DNA of 64,000 nucleotides from an uncultured Ruminococcus sp. (GTDB lineage: Bacteria > Bacillota > Clostridia > Oscillospirales > Ruminococcaceae): positions 244,448 to 308,447 of the forward strand of contig CANQWR010000001.1 in the NCBI GenBank assembly GCA_947627625.1, given 5' to 3'. Both the position numbers and the translations under genes were made by a program. Below the pieces are notes generated by a model. The model did no database searches, was not told where the DNA came from, and was given only the letters and a program-made list of their open reading frames with translations. This document shows, in pieces, positions 24,404-33,539 of this stretch (its first letter is position 1; every line of letters begins with the position of its first letter).

Positions 24404-25717
24404 TCACTTCTCGGAGCAAAATTCCACCTTTTCACCGTTCAAAATCATATTTGTAGTCCTCACAGCACACATTTTTCCGCACATGGAGCAGGTGTGACGC
24501 TCCGATATGGGAGTGCTTTCGTAGTACGCACGGGCTTTTTCGGGGTCTATGCAAATTTTGAACATCTCCTCCCAGTCGAGAGCGTGACGGGCTTCAGCCA
24601 TGGCGTTATCGGCGTCTTTGGCGTGGGGTACGCCCTTTGCAATGTCGGCAGCGTGTGCGGCTATCTTGCTTGCCATTATACCCTCTTTCACGTCATCGAC
24701 ATCGGGCAGTCGGAGGTGTTCGGCGGGGGTGACATAGCAAAGGAAGTCCGCACCGCTTGCCGCTGCGATTGCTCCACCTATTGCGGAAGTTATGTGGTCA
24801 TAACCGGGAGCAATATCTGTCACGAGAGGTCCTAAAACGTAAAAAGGAGCGTTGTGACAGATACGTTTCTGGAGTTTCATATTTGCGGCGATTTCATTCA
24901 TAGCCATGTGTCCGGGACCTTCAACCATCACCTGTACATCTTTTGCCCACGCTCTTTCGGTCAGCGCACCGAGTTCAATGAGTTCGGAGACCTGACCCGC
25001 ATCTGTGGCATCGTCTATACAGCCGGGGCGGAGTGCGTCCCCAAGGCTTATTGTCACATCGTATTCACGGAGAATTTCAAGCACTTCATCATAGTGTTCA
25101 TAGAAAGGATTTTCGTTGCCCGTCATCATCATCCACGCAAAGAGCAGAGAACCTCCACGTGACACGATATTCATTTTTCGCTTGTCACGCATAAGGGCTT
25201 CAACGGCACGCCTGTTTATGCCAGCGTGAATGGTCATGAAGTCCACACCCTCTTCAGCGTGAGCCCTAACGACTTTCAGGAAGTCCTCAGCGGAAATTTC
25301 AAGCAAGTCCTTTTCGAGATAGCCTATAGCGTCGTACATGGGGACAGTGCCAATCATAACGGGAGATTTTTCAACAAGCTGTGTGCGGAAAGTGTTGGTT
25401 TTGCCGTAGTTGCTCAAATCCATGATAGCCTCTGCACCGAATTTTATAGCCATATCGACTTTCTGCATTTCAACATCGTAGTCTTTGACATCTCCCGAAA
25501 TACCGAGGTTGACGTTAATTTTAGTCCTCATGCGTGAACCAATGCCTTCGGGGGATATGGACTTGTGTCTGATATTGCACGGTATACAGACTTCTCCCTT
25601 TGCGACAAGTTCACGGAGTTCCTGTCCGCTTATGTACTCTTTTTGTGCGACAATTTTCATTTCGGGAGTGATAATGCCCTTTTTTGCCGCCTCCATTTGT
25701 GTAGCGTATTCTCTCAT
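24404..25717 (-). CDS. thiC: Phosphomethylpyrimidine synthase ThiC
   Basis: A 437-residue radical-SAM-type enzyme that rearranges aminoimidazole ribotide into HMP-phosphate, the pyrimidine half of thiamine. The motifs [35 protein letters not shown] and [11 protein letters not shown] are classic ThiC. The C-terminal CSMCGKMC is the C-x2-C-x4-C [4Fe-4S] site. The length is that of the short bacterial form without the N-terminal ThiC-associated domain. Its ATG overlaps the thiED stop (ATGA), so it is the coupled last gene of the thiamine operon, under the TPP riboswitch far upstream. Confidence 0.96.
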
Positions 25718-27192
25718 AAAACAGCTCTCTTTCCTATAATATTTTTTAACATATCAAACTGCGTTGACAAAAAATTCTCACCACAGAATTTATGGTCAAG
25801 CATACCTTTGCCCCTGCCCAGATTAAGACCCGATTCAAGACAGGTATTTATAAATTTTTTAGCTTTGTCAGCCGAAGTATACAAGTCGTACCCCAGAGCA
25901 AAATTTGACGCTATTGCACTCGACATTGTACAGCCTGTGCCGTGAGTGTTGGGGTTGTCAATTCTTTTACCCTCTAACCAAAAATATTTTCCGTCATTTT
26001 GGTAAATCAAATCGTCCGCACTGTCTTCAAGGTGACCGCCCTTGACAAGCACGTCACAGCCGTATTTTTCGGCGATAATCTTTGCGGACTCCTGCATATC
26101 TTTCAGACCGTTGATTTTTATACCCGTTATGAGTTCGGTTTCGGGGATATTGGGCGTTACGAGTCTTGCAACGGGGAAGAGCAGATTTTTTACTTTTTCG
26201 TAAGCCTGTTTGTTACTCAAATCCGCACCGCTTGTCGCAACGGCAACGGGGTCAACGACTATATTATCAGCTTTCCAATATTTCAGCCTGTCTGCAATTA
26301 TTTCGGCAGTTTCGGCACTTGAAATCATACCGATTTTCACGGCATCGGGTCTTACGTCACCGAAAACCATGTCGATTTGCTCAGCGACAAATTCGGGTGG
26401 GACGTCGTGTATTGCGGAGACACCTGTTGTGTTTTGAGCCGTGAGAGCCGTTATAGCACTCATAGCGTAGACACCGTGTACCTGCATAGTCTTTATGTCA
26501 GCCTGTATGCCTGCACCGCCTGAGCAGTCACTTCCCGCAATAGTCAGGGCAGTTCTTGTATTGTAGACCTTATCCCACGTTTCAGCGAGTTCCCTTGTAG
26601 CTGTGTACGGGTTGTCTGCACCGAAAACCGCTGACACCACAGCAATTCCCCTGTTACCACAGCCACGCAGTTCCCACATATTATTTTTAGTGATACCGCC
26701 TATTGCAACGGCAGGGATTCGCACACTCCTGCATATTTCCCGCAAATCATCGGGAGTAATTCTCACGGCGTTTTTTTTGGTAGGGGAGGGGAAAACTGCT
26801 CCCACGCCGATATAATCCGCACCTTGTTTTTCAGCTTTCAGTGCCTGCTCAACCGTTTTAGCGGTAGCACCTATAATAAAAGCCGTATCAGTATTAGCAC
26901 GTATTTCGGCGACAGAATCGTCCTCCAATCCGACGTGAACACCGTCCGCACCGATTAGTTTTGCGGCTTTCCAGTCGTCATTAACTATCAGTTTCACGCC
27001 GTGCCTGTGGCATATGGGAACGAGTTCGGAGGCGATTTTTGCGAGTTCCTCCGTACTGATATTTTTTTCACGGAGCTGTATCATAGTCGCACCGCCCTGT
27101 ATAGCGAGTTCAACGTGCAACTTCATGTCTTTCCCCTTCAGGCACTCCCTGTCGGTTATAGCGTAAATTTTCAGTTCATCGGGATTTCTCAC
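25714..27192 (-). CDS. thiED: ThiE-ThiD fusion: thiamine phosphate synthase and HMP(-P) kinase
   Basis: A 492-residue bifunctional protein. Residues 1-210 are Thi[47 protein letters not shown] and [13 protein letters not shown] are the substrate-binding segments. Residues about 217-490 are Thi[55 protein letters not shown] and the [16 protein letters not shown] anion hole. It phosphorylates HMP-P and joins HMP-PP with the thiazole phosphate. In order it overlaps both thiC (ATGA) and the preceding thiE-like gene. GGGGAA before the ATG at 27192 is a modest ribosome site. Fusions in this order occur in other bacteria. Confidence 0.94.
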
Positions 27193-27781
27193 TTGTTTCA
27201 GCCCCCTTTCTCAGTCTTTCTATATATTCAACAGGATCTCCGCAAGTCATAAAGCCGCTCATAACACAGGCACCGTCCGCACCCGCTTTTACAATCTGAC
27301 TTATATTTTCGGGACTTATTCCCCCTATGGCATACACGGGAATTTTCACCGCATTGCAGACCCGTTTCAGGAAATCAAGCCCACGGGGGGCGAGACCTTT
27401 TTTGCAGTCCGTTTCAAAAATATGACCTGCTATGACGTAATTCACGCCCATTTTTTCGGCTTCCACGGCTTCATTGACGGAGTGGACCGAGACACCTGCA
27501 AATCTGGCGGAATCAATATCTTTCGGGTTGATACTCCGTAACGCAGGCATTGTCATATGAACATCGCTGAACCTGTCAAAACTCCTGTACATACTGCACG
27601 GTACGCCGTATCTGTTGCCTGTTTCAAGTATTTCGGACGCTGTTCTGATATAGTCCTCATAACTGCAATCTTTATCACGGAATATTATTCTGTCGGGCTT
27701 TGCGGACGCTATTTTTTCTATTCTTGTCAGAAAATCCTCTTTGCAGGACTTCCTGTCCGTGACACAAATTATCTTAAACAT
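27176..27781 (-). CDS. ThiE/TenI-like protein (thiamine phosphate synthase paralogue)
   Basis: A protein of about 201 residues with the ThiE/TenI barrel pattern: FKIICVTDRK, RIIFRDKDCSYEDY (where ThiE has QLREKD), VSVHSVNEAVEAEKMGVNYVIAGHIFETDCKKGLAPRGLDFL and IPVYAIGGISPENI. The GHIFETxxKxGLAPRGL segment is closer to TenI-type thiazole tautomerases than to true ThiE (family knowledge). A complete ThiE is fused in the next gene, so a TenI-like role in preparing the thiazole is the better guess. The ATG at 27781 is preferred over 27793 because the family starts there; it overlaps the thiH end. Confidence 0.82.
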   Translation of the reverse strand: MFKIICVTDRKSCKEDFLTRIEKIASAKPDRIIFRDKDCSYEDYIRTASEILETGNRYGVPCSMYRSFDRFSDVHMTMPALRSINPKDIDSARFAGVSVHSVNEAVEAEKMGVNYVIAGHIFETDCKKGLAPRGLDFLKRVCNAVKIPVYAIGGISPENISQIVKAGADGACVMSGFMTCGDPVEYIERLRKGAETSEKSR

Positions 27782-29027
27782 AGAGATAGTCATTCAGCAC
27801 GGGCTGTAAACCCTCACCGGACATATCGTCGTACATCTTCTGAAAACTCCGTGAGTCGTTTATCTCAAACTGCTCGTCACCCTCTGCCGAACTGTTCCCC
27901 TTTCCTGTGTATTTGCTCTCGTGGTCGCCTATGCCTGTTGAAACTCCTGCTGAAACTTTTGTCGCACAGATTTTTACAATGCCGTTTCTGAAATCCTCAC
28001 TCTCTCTTGAAGAGACTGTTATACCCGCAAACGGCAGAAAAATCCTGTACGCACAGAGAATCTGACAGAGCTGTTTTTCCCCGACATCAAGCGGATTTAT
28101 ATTGCCGTTGTTGATGATAGGGCGGAGACGTGGACAGGACAGGGAAATTTCGGCGTGCGGGTATTTTCTTTGCAGATAAAAAGCGTGGAGAGCTGTTGCG
28201 AGTGCATCTTTGCGGAAGTCCGATAGACCTAAAAGTGCAGAAAACGCAACACCTCTCATACCGCCCATAAGAGCACGCTCCTGAGCTTCAAACCTGTACG
28301 GAAAGACACGCTTGTGACCTGCAAGGTGGAGAGTTTCGTACTTGTCGGAGTTGTAAGTCTCCTGAAAGACCGTCACATAGTCCGCACCGCACTCGTGGAG
28401 ATACTTGTACTCTTCAGTGTTTACGGGGTAAATTTCAAGTCCGACCATTCTGAAATATTTTCGTGCGAGTTTGCAGGCTTCACCTATATATTCAACGTCA
28501 CTCTTTGCACGGCTTTCACCAGTCAGAATTAAAATTTCCTCCATACCGCTTTTAGCTATGACCTGCATTTCGTGTTCAATCTGTTCTGGGGAGAGTTTCA
28601 TACGGCGTATGTGGTTGTACCTGTTGAAACCGCAGTACACGCAGTAATTTTCGCAGTAGTTTGCGATATACAGGGGAGTGAAAATATATACAGTGTTCCC
28701 GAAATGTTTTCTTGTTTCAAGCCTTGCCTTTTCAGCCATTTTTTCAAGAAAAGGCTGACCGGCAGGGGAGAGGAGTGCCTTAAAATCTTCAACGGAGCAG
28801 GTGTCGTGCTGTAGAGCCCTCAAAACATCTTTAGACGTGTAAATACTGTAGTCATAATCTGAGACCTGCTCCAGAACTTTCTGCATAATATCGGACTTTA
28901 TCTGCTCCATGCCGTCCATGTACTCCATGTGATTTGTACGGCTTGCGGGGTTGTTTTCAAGCTCGTGCTTTTTTTTCAGGGCACTCTCAGAAAGCCCGTC
29001 CGGATCTATAAAATAATTATTCTCCAC
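27774..29027 (-). CDS. thiH: 2-iminoacetate synthase ThiH (tyrosine lyase)
   Basis: A 417-residue radical SAM enzyme that splits tyrosine into dehydroglycine and p-cresol, supplying the glycine part of the thiazole without oxygen. The cluster motif C-ENY-C-VY-C lies near residue 128, preceded by VYIFTPLYIANYCENYC, and GMEEILILTGESR, ADYVTVFQETYN and SCPRLRP follow, all ThiH-like. Use of ThiH instead of the oxidase ThiO fits an anaerobe. It overlaps the preceding unknown gene by 11 bases and the following thiE-like gene slightly. Confidence 0.94.
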   Translation of the reverse strand: MENNYFIDPDGLSESALKKKHELENNPASRTNHMEYMDGMEQIKSDIMQKVLEQVSDYDYSIYTSKDVLRALQHDTCSVEDFKALLSPAGQPFLEKMAEKARLETRKHFGNTVYIFTPLYIANYCENYCVYCGFNRYNHIRRMKLSPEQIEHEMQVIAKSGMEEILILTGESRAKSDVEYIGEACKLARKYFRMVGLEIYPVNTEEYKYLHECGADYVTVFQETYNSDKYETLHLAGHKRVFPYRFEAQERALMGGMRGVAFSALLGLSDFRKDALATALHAFYLQRKYPHAEISLSCPRLRPIINNGNINPLDVGEKQLCQILCAYRIFLPFAGITVSSRESEDFRNGIVKICATKVSAGVSTGIGDHESKYTGKGNSSAEGDEQFEINDSRSFQKMYDDMSGEGLQPVLNDYLYV

Positions 29028-30509: not shown

Positions 30510-30537
30510 ACGAAAAAATTTTTTCTTGAAATGGTTC

Positions 30538-30626
30538 TGTTTTCCCTGCGTTGGCATTATCCAAATCAGGTAAAAAGGGTCGAGAGCTGAAGCTCTCCTC
30601 TCAGCCTGAAACACAAGCTCCCCGAA
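30538..30626 (-). promoter_or_regulatory. TPP riboswitch (THI element)
   Basis: The minus strand reads GGGGAGCTTG...CAGGCTGAGAGGAG...CTCGACCC...ACCTGATTTGGATAATGCCAACGCAGGGAAAAC. CTGAGA, ACCTGAT and GGATAATGCCAACGCAGGGAA are the conserved pyrimidine and pyrophosphate sensor cores of the THI box. It controls the seven-gene thiamine operon through the adjacent terminator. Confidence 0.97.
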
Positions 30627-30655
30627 CAATCCGGATTTTGTAAATTACGGTAAAT

Positions 30656-30741: not shown

Positions 30742-31251
30742 TCACGGTTCGCACTCAACGGCTCTGCCAAGTCGCAAACTCTCCCGACAGTCAAGATACC
30801 TTTGGTTTGAACTTCCTCTGAATTTTGTGTTCCAACTCTTGAGTTTTATGACGAACTCCCCATCTATCAGAAAATCGGTCACGGCGAGGAGTTTCCCCCA
30901 ACCGTCTTTGTCCATATTTTCATAAAGCTCCTCAAATTTATAGCCGGTGTAGGTGACGACATTCAGCCCCATTGATTTTATTTTTTCCCCCAGAACGGCG
31001 AGAGATTCAGCCTGACAGAACGGTTCGCCGCCACTGAAAGTCACGCCATCGAGGAGAGGATTTGATTTGATTTTTTTAATAAGACGTTCTCCCGTGACGA
31101 CATATCCCCCGTCAAAATCGTGAGTTTGCGGGTTGTGACAGCCCTTGCAGTTGTGCGGACAGCCCTGAGTAAAGATAGTGAACCTTATCCCCGGACCGTC
31201 CACAATTGAGTCATTTATAGTCCCGGCTATTCTGATTGAAATTTCTCTCAT
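30742..31251 (-). CDS. nrdG: Anaerobic ribonucleotide reductase activating protein NrdG
   Basis: A 169-residue radical SAM activase that puts the glycyl radical on NrdD. The motif C-PHN-C-KG-C (TQGCPHNCKGCHNPQTH, near residue 30) binds the [4Fe-4S] cluster, DGPGIRFTIF precedes it and VTFSGGEPFCQAESL is the SAM-binding GGEP. Its ATG overlaps the nrdD stop (ATGA), so it is coupled. Cells using this pair make dNTPs under strict anaerobiosis. Confidence 0.95.
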   Translation of the reverse strand: MREISIRIAGTINDSIVDGPGIRFTIFTQGCPHNCKGCHNPQTHDFDGGYVVTGERLIKKIKSNPLLDGVTFSGGEPFCQAESLAVLGEKIKSMGLNVVTYTGYKFEELYENMDKDGWGKLLAVTDFLIDGEFVIKLKSWNTKFRGSSNQRYLDCRESLRLGRAVECEP

Positions 31252-33524
31252 AGTGTGCGTTCAGCCCTGTCGCCATCTGCATCGGGACAGCAAGTTGCAC
31301 GGCGTATTCTGTCAAAAGCCACGTTTTCATAGTGTTCACGTCTTCCGCAGTAGGGACAGGTGTCCCCTATGATACCCGTGTAACCGCAGCATGGGTCACG
31401 GTCAACGGGGTGGTTTATAGCCCCGTAGCCTATGCCCGACTCTTTCATACAGCGTACAATCTTCTCAAAGGCGTCGAGATTTTGGAGAGGGTCTCCGTCG
31501 AGTTCAATATAGCTTATGTGACCCGCATTTGTGAGTTCATGATAGGGAGCTTCTATTTTGATTTTCTCAAACGCACTTATGGGGTAGTACACAGGCACAT
31601 GGAAAGAATTTGTATAATAGTCACGGTCTGTGACACCCTCTATTATGCCGTACCTCTTCTTGTCCATGCGGACAAATCTTCCCGATAGACCCTCCGCAGG
31701 TGTTGCAAGGAGTGAGAAGTTGAGACCTGTCCTTGCGGACTCCTCATCAAGTCTCTTACGCATAGCGGTTATTATTTCAAGACCGAGTTCACGGGCTTCT
31801 TCACTCTCACCGTGGTGTGAACCTATGAGAGCTTTGAGAGCTTCCGCAAGACCTATGAACCCGACGGAGAGCGTACCGTGTTTGAGAATTTCGCCTATAG
31901 TGTCATCATAGGAGAGTTTGTCCGAGTCAATCCAGATACCCTGTCCCATGAGGAACGGGAAGTTTTTGACTTTTTTCTGTGACTGTATACGGAACCTGTG
32001 CATAAGCTGATCTATACACAAGTCCATCATCTCATCAAGTCTGTCAAAGAACATACCGACATTGTGGTCGGACTCTATAGCTATTCGGGGGAGGTTTATT
32101 GAAGTGAAGCTTAAATTTCCCCTGCCCGTCACTATTTGTCTTGACTTGTCGTAATTGTTGCTGATAACTCTTGTCCTGCACCCCATATAGGCTATTTCGG
32201 TGTCGGGACAACCCTCTTTGTAGTACTGCAAATTGTAGGGAGCGTCTATAAAAGAAAAATTCGGGAAGAGTCTCTTTGCGGAGACTCTGCAAGCAAGTCT
32301 GAACAAATCATAATTGGGGTCTTCGGGATTGTAATTGACACCCTCTTTTATCTTGAAAATGTGAATCGGGAAGATAGGAGTTTCACCGTTGCCGAGACCC
32401 GCTTCCTGTGCGAGGAGTACATTTTTTATGACCATTCTGCCTTCGGGGGAGGTGTCCGTGCCGTAATTTATTGAGCTAAAAGGAGTCTGTGCCCCTGCAC
32501 GGCTGTTCATGGTGTTGAGATTGTGAATAAGAGCTTCCATAGCCTGATAAGCAGCCCTGTCGGTTTCCTTTTCGGCATTTTTGAGTGCGAATTTCTGAAT
32601 TTTCACAGCGGTCTCACTGTCCGTGTAGTTCAGCAGAAATTGGAGTTCCTTTTCCTGATAGCCGTTGTTGTTTGCTAAAACGGGTTTCAGACCGTATTTT
32701 TCATAAATTTCTTTTCTGATATTTTCGGCAGTACCGTCAGGAGCATTGCACATCAGGGACAACGCCCTTGCTATATTTTGGGTGTATCTGTGGTCGTAGG
32801 TCTTTTTTATGCCCTCCGACATTGCATAATCGAAAGTCGGGATACTCTGACCGCCGTGCTGGTCGTTCTGGTTGGACTGTATAGCGATACAGGCGAGAGC
32901 GGAGTAACTTGAAATATCGTTTGGTTCACGCAGATAGCCGTGACCCGTTGAGAAGCCGTTGTGGAATAGTTTTGTCAAATCTATCTGGGAGCAGGTAGTT
33001 GTCAGGGTGTAGAAATCGAGGTCGTGAATATGAATGTCGCCCTCACGGTGAGCCTTGGCGTGTTTTGGGTCGAGGACGTACATCTCGTAATACTCTTTTG
33101 CGGAGACAGAGCCGTATTTGAGCATAGTACCCATAGCTGTGTCACCGTCTATATTGGCGTTCTCACGCTTTATATCGCTGTCTTTTGCGGAACTGAAAGT
33201 CAGCTCATTGAGTACGCACATCAGATTTGTCTTCATCTCTCTTGAGCGTGTACGTTCGTATCTGTACAATATATAAGCCTTTGCGGTGCGGGCGTGACCA
33301 TTTTCAATCAGAGTTTTTTCAACAAGGTCCTGAATTTCCTCTACAGTGGGAATTTTGTCGGGGTGTATTTTTTCATAGGTTTTGCAGACTTCCACCGCCA
33401 CGTCCATAGCGGTGTTGAAATCGGAACCGCCGCAGGACTGTGCGGACTTGAAAACGGCGTTTGCGATTTTTTCTATATTGAACGGCACTTTTCTGCCGTC
33501 TCTCTTTATTATATGTATTATCAT
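31248..33524 (-). CDS. nrdD: Anaerobic ribonucleoside-triphosphate reductase NrdD, odd C-terminus
   Basis: A 758-residue class III reductase. An ATP-cone lies at about 1-90 (MIIHIIKRDGRKVPFNIEKIANAV), then the catalytic barrel with GDIHIHDLDFY, CIAIQSNQNDQHGGQS, NTMNSRAGAQTPFSSINYGTD and NLSFTSINLPRIA. The zinc site is near the end (DPCCGYTGIIGDTCPYCGRRE). The tail after FDRIRR reads ATCCPDADGDRAERTL and lacks the glycyl-radical motif (R-x-x-GYL) expected there; see findings. GGAGGTATGTCT precedes the ATG at 33524, so the 36-codon ORF extension is rejected. Cotranscribed with nrdG. Confidence 0.92.
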   Translation of the reverse strand: MIIHIIKRDGRKVPFNIEKIANAVFKSAQSCGGSDFNTAMDVAVEVCKTYEKIHPDKIPTVEEIQDLVEKTLIENGHARTAKAYILYRYERTRSREMKTNLMCVLNELTFSSAKDSDIKRENANIDGDTAMGTMLKYGSVSAKEYYEMYVLDPKHAKAHREGDIHIHDLDFYTLTTTCSQIDLTKLFHNGFSTGHGYLREPNDISSYSALACIAIQSNQNDQHGGQSIPTFDYAMSEGIKKTYDHRYTQNIARALSLMCNAPDGTAENIRKEIYEKYGLKPVLANNNGYQEKELQFLLNYTDSETAVKIQKFALKNAEKETDRAAYQAMEALIHNLNTMNSRAGAQTPFSSINYGTDTSPEGRMVIKNVLLAQEAGLGNGETPIFPIHIFKIKEGVNYNPEDPNYDLFRLACRVSAKRLFPNFSFIDAPYNLQYYKEGCPDTEIAYMGCRTRVISNNYDKSRQIVTGRGNLSFTSINLPRIAIESDHNVGMFFDRLDEMMDLCIDQLMHRFRIQSQKKVKNFPFLMGQGIWIDSDKLSYDDTIGEILKHGTLSVGFIGLAEALKALIGSHHGESEEARELGLEIITAMRKRLDEESARTGLNFSLLATPAEGLSGRFVRMDKKRYGIIEGVTDRDYYTNSFHVPVYYPISAFEKIKIEAPYHELTNAGHISYIELDGDPLQNLDAFEKIVRCMKESGIGYGAINHPVDRDPCCGYTGIIGDTCPYCGRREHYENVAFDRIRRATCCPDADGDRAERTL

Positions 33525-33539
33525 AGACATACCTCCGTA

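Follow-up and report, generated by a model that had tools for sequence, protein, structure and literature searches.

The window, a stretch of 64,000 nucleotides from an uncultured Ruminococcus genome, encodes on its minus strand a class III ribonucleotide reductase, NrdD, and its activase, NrdG, in the following arrangement:

30742..31251, minus strand: nrdG, radical-SAM activase (TIGR02491, 138 bits, cut-off 126)
about 31248..33530, minus strand: nrdD, class III ribonucleotide reductase body (ORF translation and curated profiles)
31248..31298, minus strand: substitute end of nrdD, 16 codons (ATCCPDADGDRAERTL) plus stop, versus 28 codons in the genus

The nrdD frame is undisrupted over about 760 codons, lies 30 kb from the contig end and overlaps the adjoining gene of its cognate activase, nrdG, by 4 nt (ATGA). 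The body contains an ATP cone, a barrel with the radical-cysteine motif MGCRTRV and a zinc-site region, and its profile scores (PF13597, 643 bits; PF03477, 84 bits; PRK07111, 1121 bits) identify both the NrdD barrel and the ATP cone; the matches to PRK07111 and TIGR02487, like that of NrdG to TIGR02491, all exceed the curated cut-offs. The PF13597 match covers positions 1–538 of 562, and the PRK07111 match runs to model position 719 of 746.

Altered C terminus of NrdD

The C-terminal domain of class III reductases has been described as the carrier of the radical. In the window, the C terminus of NrdD reads ...CPYCGRREHYENVAFDRIRR followed by ATCCPDADGDRAERTL and a stop, directly after the zinc site and FDRIRR. 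These 16 residues after RIRR (51 nt, 31298..31248) are unrelated to the 28-residue tail that they replace, which in the genus is ITGYLVGTLDRFNNGKRAEEHDRVKHxV. The first-pass annotation had noted the lack of a glycyl-radical motif, and this is borne out, as a (T/C)GYL loop is not encoded in any frame of the 51 nt 3′ of RIRR. Scored against the genus tail ITGYLVGTLDRFNNGKRAEEHDRVKHNV (self score 150), the three frames reach 20, 11 and 12, values equalled by 6%, 82% and 69% of shuffled sequences, respectively. We rejected a frameshift that would restore the tail, as no frame beats shuffled sequence, and the stretch LLSRCRWRQG, previously read as a faint remnant of the tail, is a chance resemblance by the same measure. 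A codon-by-codon reading of the end as an eroded tail with point changes of TGYL found no support in the alignment.

Among 120 Ruminococcus genomes, the NrdD end is visible in 95, and 94 of these carry the normal tail or a near copy; the alignment with close relatives that had been proposed as a check thus singles out the window as the sole tail-less member. Its NrdD is otherwise ~88–93% identical to those of the genus. The body shows pN of ~0.085 and pS of ~0.74 against relatives, similar to intact pairs, a rough measure with synonymous sites near saturation and, if the loss in this lineage was very recent, one uninformative on function after tail loss.

A second nrdD or a reductase of class I or II, also suggested as something to look for, was not found: PF02867, which covers classes I and II, has zero matches in the window genome (an 87%-complete assembly); in 31 near-complete relatives from the genus, and in three genomes discussed below (G255, G186 and G268), no match reaches the cut-off. 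NrdD therefore appears to be the sole ribonucleotide reductase of this genome; another could possibly sit in the missing 13% of the assembly, although the genus lacks one.

Thiamine genes follow nrdDG, headed by a TPP riboswitch (RF00059, 71.5 bits, window 30525-30634, minus strand). Within the region 25714-27793, the ORF at 25714-27192 (minus strand) reads by eye as a fused thiamine-phosphate synthase and hydroxymethylpyrimidine kinase, and a second ORF at 27176-27793 (minus strand), thiE-like by eye, adjoins it.

A stand-alone NrdD-type radical protein

The search for separate ‘spare part’ proteins, recommended in the first-pass annotation, led to a small glycyl-radical protein in the same genome:

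G000:C4:92243-92521, outside the window and unlinked to nrdD: 92-aa stand-alone NrdD-type radical protein, residues 59-90 matching PF13597 positions 533-562

Besides NrdD, it alone in the genome matches PF13597, over exactly those profile positions that NrdD lacks. The protein joins a small N-terminal domain to the missing C-terminal piece of NrdD, its end reading FDRIRRITGYLVGTLDRFNNGKRAEEHDRVKHTV / FADVPFDRIRRITGYLVGTLDRFNNGKRAEEHDRVKHTV, with G67 as the radical glycine; in build it corresponds to the autonomous glycyl radical cofactors (GrcA/YfiD-like), small free-standing copies of the radical segment found in an enzyme family of the same genome. The motif can be aligned to the radical loop of the Prevotella copri NrdD (8p23; E 4e-8). 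The protein matches PF13597 only, not the formate-lyase Gly_radical family PF01228; judged by sequence, it falls outside the GrcA family and is GrcA-like only in its proposed role. Across 66 aligned stand-alone homologues, R-x-x-RITGYLVGT is invariant, as are the tail residues K, E, R, V and H.

Of 35 genus relatives, at least 26 have an orthologue, with 66–81% identity. Nearly all of these also keep an intact NrdD, so the ancestral role of the small protein in the genus was probably repair. In the window genome, a rubrerythrin gene follows the 92-aa gene and a gene for a Crp/FNR-type regulator diverges from it; at genus loci of the stand-alone gene, rubrerythrin is next in 26 of 28 and the regulator is divergent in 23 of 28. 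Further relatives are spread across many Clostridia (80 of 586 loci kept). A single-chain model of the Ruminococcus flavefaciens homologue predicts a confident beta-alpha-beta-beta N-terminal domain (pLDDT ~82) and a radical tail of low confidence (pLDDT ~55); a low-confidence tail in the lone chain is what one would expect if this part has to dock into NrdD. A fold search with the small protein returned nothing significant (best E 0.25, HPF/YfiA-like), and no dedicated Pfam, NCBIfam or PHROG model for the radical subunit was found.

Many genus genomes, with no example found in the window genome, also encode a type-2 paralogue, ~40% identical, in which the radical loop is replaced (RITGYLVGT to RSADYLVNS; for example, G002:C35:201495-201755 (L069) and G035:C1:380691-380951 (L073)). 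We considered this paralogue as a second spare part and rejected it, since it lacks the glycine; with RSADYLVNS it would be unable to carry a glycyl radical, and it is possibly a regulator or decoy.

Recurrence in Clostridia and phages

In a sample of 157 genomes of the order, window included and counted by hand from tables, a stand-alone radical part accompanies all 28 tail-less NrdDs, as opposed to 10 of 41 intact NrdDs (Fisher 3.5e-11) and 0 of 87 genomes without this NrdD type. The 28 cases comprise 24 of an operon type, namely 23 adjacent pairs of nrdD and the radical gene plus G223, where the pair is split across contig ends, and 4 unlinked cases, namely the window, G255, G186 and G268. 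In the operon type, nrdD has a different tail, for example CPRCGRREGEGVSVEKLRELRRQYPNMPHFCGCE, and is followed by a short ORF with GVGFERIRRITGYLVGTLDRFNNGKRAEERDRVKHSV and then, where seen, by nrdG. More than one stand-alone NrdD radical ORF is present in some operon-type genomes, which have two or three, each of 51-81 codons (L225 and L226 in G211, L224 in G166, L201 in G147 and L208 in G207). The stand-alone proteins of the other unlinked cases are of the same type as in the window genome; the NrdDs end in HAVATERVERIKL in G255 and in HAVSSERVARIKA in G186. The new tails vary by lineage (ATCCPDADG..., HAVATERVERIKL, SERICRIRPEKKGDL) and share no common loop. G227, a congener of G255, encodes an intact NrdD together with a spare part and is presumed to be the intermediate.

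A sample of the class added one further tail-less NrdD, in G403, with the radical part adjacent. Four genomes of this sample with distant NrdDs and no match to the radical query (G393, G438, G418 and G342) were considered as counter-examples and rejected, since each does have a tail, of divergent sequence (RVTGYLS). In G364, NrdD survives only as broken pieces and the radical part is absent, consistent with a pseudogene.

Viral contigs contain 293 stretches that encode relatives of the small protein; among the best 80 of these, the proteins are mostly stand-alone, roughly 85–130 codons long, with the same kind of N-terminal domain. Such stand-alone radical proteins are common in the viral contigs L229-L308, many without nrdD in the stretch read. 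On six contigs (L253, L262, L269, L270, L271 and L275, with L269 and L270 nearly the same), a tail-less NrdD has the stand-alone gene close by; viral origin was checked for L262 and L270 only, and both have neighbours of phage families. Phages may therefore supply spare parts for the host NrdD, by analogy with Y06I of phage T4 for formate-lyase.

In a tree of 59 NrdD bodies, built with the tail columns excluded, the window NrdD nests among members of the genus whose NrdD is intact. On this tree, 6 changes of the intact label are required, and the starred branches force as many; the tail was lost several times. Pairs that share the tail-less state have dN/dS of 0.028–0.083, and purifying selection on these NrdD bodies therefore continued without the tail.

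A proposed two-polypeptide reductase

We propose, with a probability of roughly 85%, that in this Ruminococcus two polypeptides make up the class III reductase, the NrdD body and the separate 92-aa protein with the glycyl radical. From NrdD, which has lost the radical loop, would come the ATP cone, the active-site cysteine within its barrel, and the zinc portion of the C-terminal domain; the radical glycine, G67, would be on the small protein. NrdG would activate this glycine, and the loop of the small protein would then insert into the NrdD barrel and generate the thiyl radical on the NrdD cysteine. The radical glycine of the P. copri NrdD, Gly711, lies at a loop tip inside the barrel beside the initiator cysteine, after the zinc module (PMC11226230); the split point here is placed by the sequences between zinc module and radical loop. 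In E. coli, PflB G734A regains formate production in vivo when GrcA acts in trans (PMC12338860), a rescue of a glycine-less enzyme that shows the principle, by analogy, for a related enzyme. Most likely, the small protein began in the genus as a spare part replacing an O2-cleaved NrdD tail; later, in the window lineage, the covalent tail would have become dispensable and then eroded, turning the spare part into an obligatory subunit. Against this reading stand the single 87%-complete assembly available for the window species and the lack of linkage between nrdD and the small gene here.

The missing tail could instead reflect a local sequencing or assembly fault in a gene whose true copy has the normal tail and exists alongside a genus-wide spare part. 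The single metagenome-type assembly and the 94 tailed ends among 95 in the genus would suit such a fault, but no frame beats shuffles, so single-base errors cannot explain the absence; the ORF is also tidy, as are its stop and ATGA overlap, it sits 30 kb inside the contig, and G255, G186 and G268 are in the same tail-less state. We consider a fault unlikely, and with it the small insertion or deletion or sequence error that the first-pass annotation had entertained, as no frame resembles the tail and the layout recurs in independent genomes. The other option raised there, a truly altered enzyme that could not carry a normal glycyl radical, gains support from the presence of the spare part in this genome and from the recurrence of tail-less NrdD with a stand-alone part in other genera, families and phages. 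That nrdD is a recent pseudogene, with dNTPs coming from another enzyme or from salvage, is very unlikely: loss of a catalytic residue normally means decay and the genome is incomplete, but the ORF is undisrupted, PF02867 is missing here and, above cut-off, in the near-complete relatives, and other tail-less NrdDs evolve at dN/dS 0.03–0.08.

Two further explanations would leave the window NrdD without the small protein as its partner. The latter might be a repair part for intact reductases only, or serve another glycyl radical enzyme, and be present by coincidence, as the many genus members with both intact NrdD and the small protein could suggest. This is highly improbable, given that its motif is of the NrdD and not the pyruvate formate-lyase type, that formate-lyase has its own separate RVSGYAV part and that co-occurrence with tail-less NrdD is 28 of 28. 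Non-glycine relatives of glycyl radical enzymes, such as the aminoacyl radical enzymes (AAREs), do exist (PMC11528403), and another residue of the new NrdD tail could in principle be the radical site, independently of the small protein; but the new tails differ between lineages without a shared loop, a stand-alone GYL part is always present, and the loop is missing from NrdD rather than retained with its glycine substituted as in AAREs, so we give this explanation hardly any weight.

Beyond the window, we think it probable that class III reductases with a separate radical subunit are widespread and have evolved repeatedly in gut Clostridia and phages, an NrdD spare-part system having replaced the covalent tail in many lineages, with subunit replacement after O2 damage built in. 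Neither a split NrdD nor a spare part for NrdD turned up in the open-licence full-text literature. Current annotation calls tail-less NrdDs that would be functional complete and misses the radical subunit.

GrcA (YfiD) replaces the O2-cleaved radical tail of pyruvate formate-lyase. Like E. coli GrcA and phage T4 Y06I, the 92-aa protein is small and repeats the C-terminal segment that bears the radical in a glycyl radical enzyme, would be activated by the activase of its target and would complement an enzyme without its own glycine; the family also occurs in both bacteria and phages, here beside an O2-stress gene. Unlike them, its proposed target is a ribonucleotide reductase, it has RITGYLVGT instead of RVSGYAV and no PF01228 match, and the covalent tail appears to have been replaced permanently in several lineages. 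YfiD and Y06I are the only validated spare parts, with parts for other enzymes a matter of speculation (PMC8683613); a trans-acting NrdD radical subunit would answer the question, posed there, of spare parts beyond pyruvate formate-lyase. It would also trace a path from spare part to obligatory subunit, and could provide a two-piece system for examining how the radical of an essential enzyme is installed and how O2 damage to it is repaired.

The ATP cone, barrel, radical cysteine motif, zinc-site region and adjacent NrdG are shared with the canonical NrdD/NrdG systems of T4, P. copri (8p23) and Thermotoga maritima, from which the window enzyme differs in that the radical loop and C-terminal tail are off NrdD and encoded separately. 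Two polypeptides also make up a reductase of Pseudomonas aeruginosa (PMC4520616), but this split enzyme is of another class, class II, and has no glycyl radical. Phage nrdD genes likewise occur in pieces, split by introns, inteins and homing endonucleases (PMC3653736; Jug phages, PMC12363816). Those splits are mostly ascribed to introns, inteins and endonuclease genes, whereas here the pieces are unlinked or lie almost end to end, and the small one can possess an N-terminal domain of its own. In the Jug phages, there was no evidence of splicing between the 230-aa and 91-aa nrdD pieces (PMC12363816), which could be a case of separate-radical NrdD.

The pyruvate formate-lyase of the window genome is split as well, into a 707-aa body without RVSGY, an 87-aa ORF and then an 82-aa RVSGYAV ORF:

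G000:C4:24211-27021 (L311 1712-4522): split pyruvate formate-lyase, with genus loci L312-L341

In all genus genomes with a close match, the formate-lyase radical part is a separate RVSGYAV ORF of 79-110 aa, and in some a small ORF (..SLMSGGSGHVNV..CQPTE..) lies between body and radical ORF. We did not find this split in the open-licence literature. As it extends throughout the genus, a radical on a separate polypeptide is a habit of the lineage and not the oddity of a single gene.
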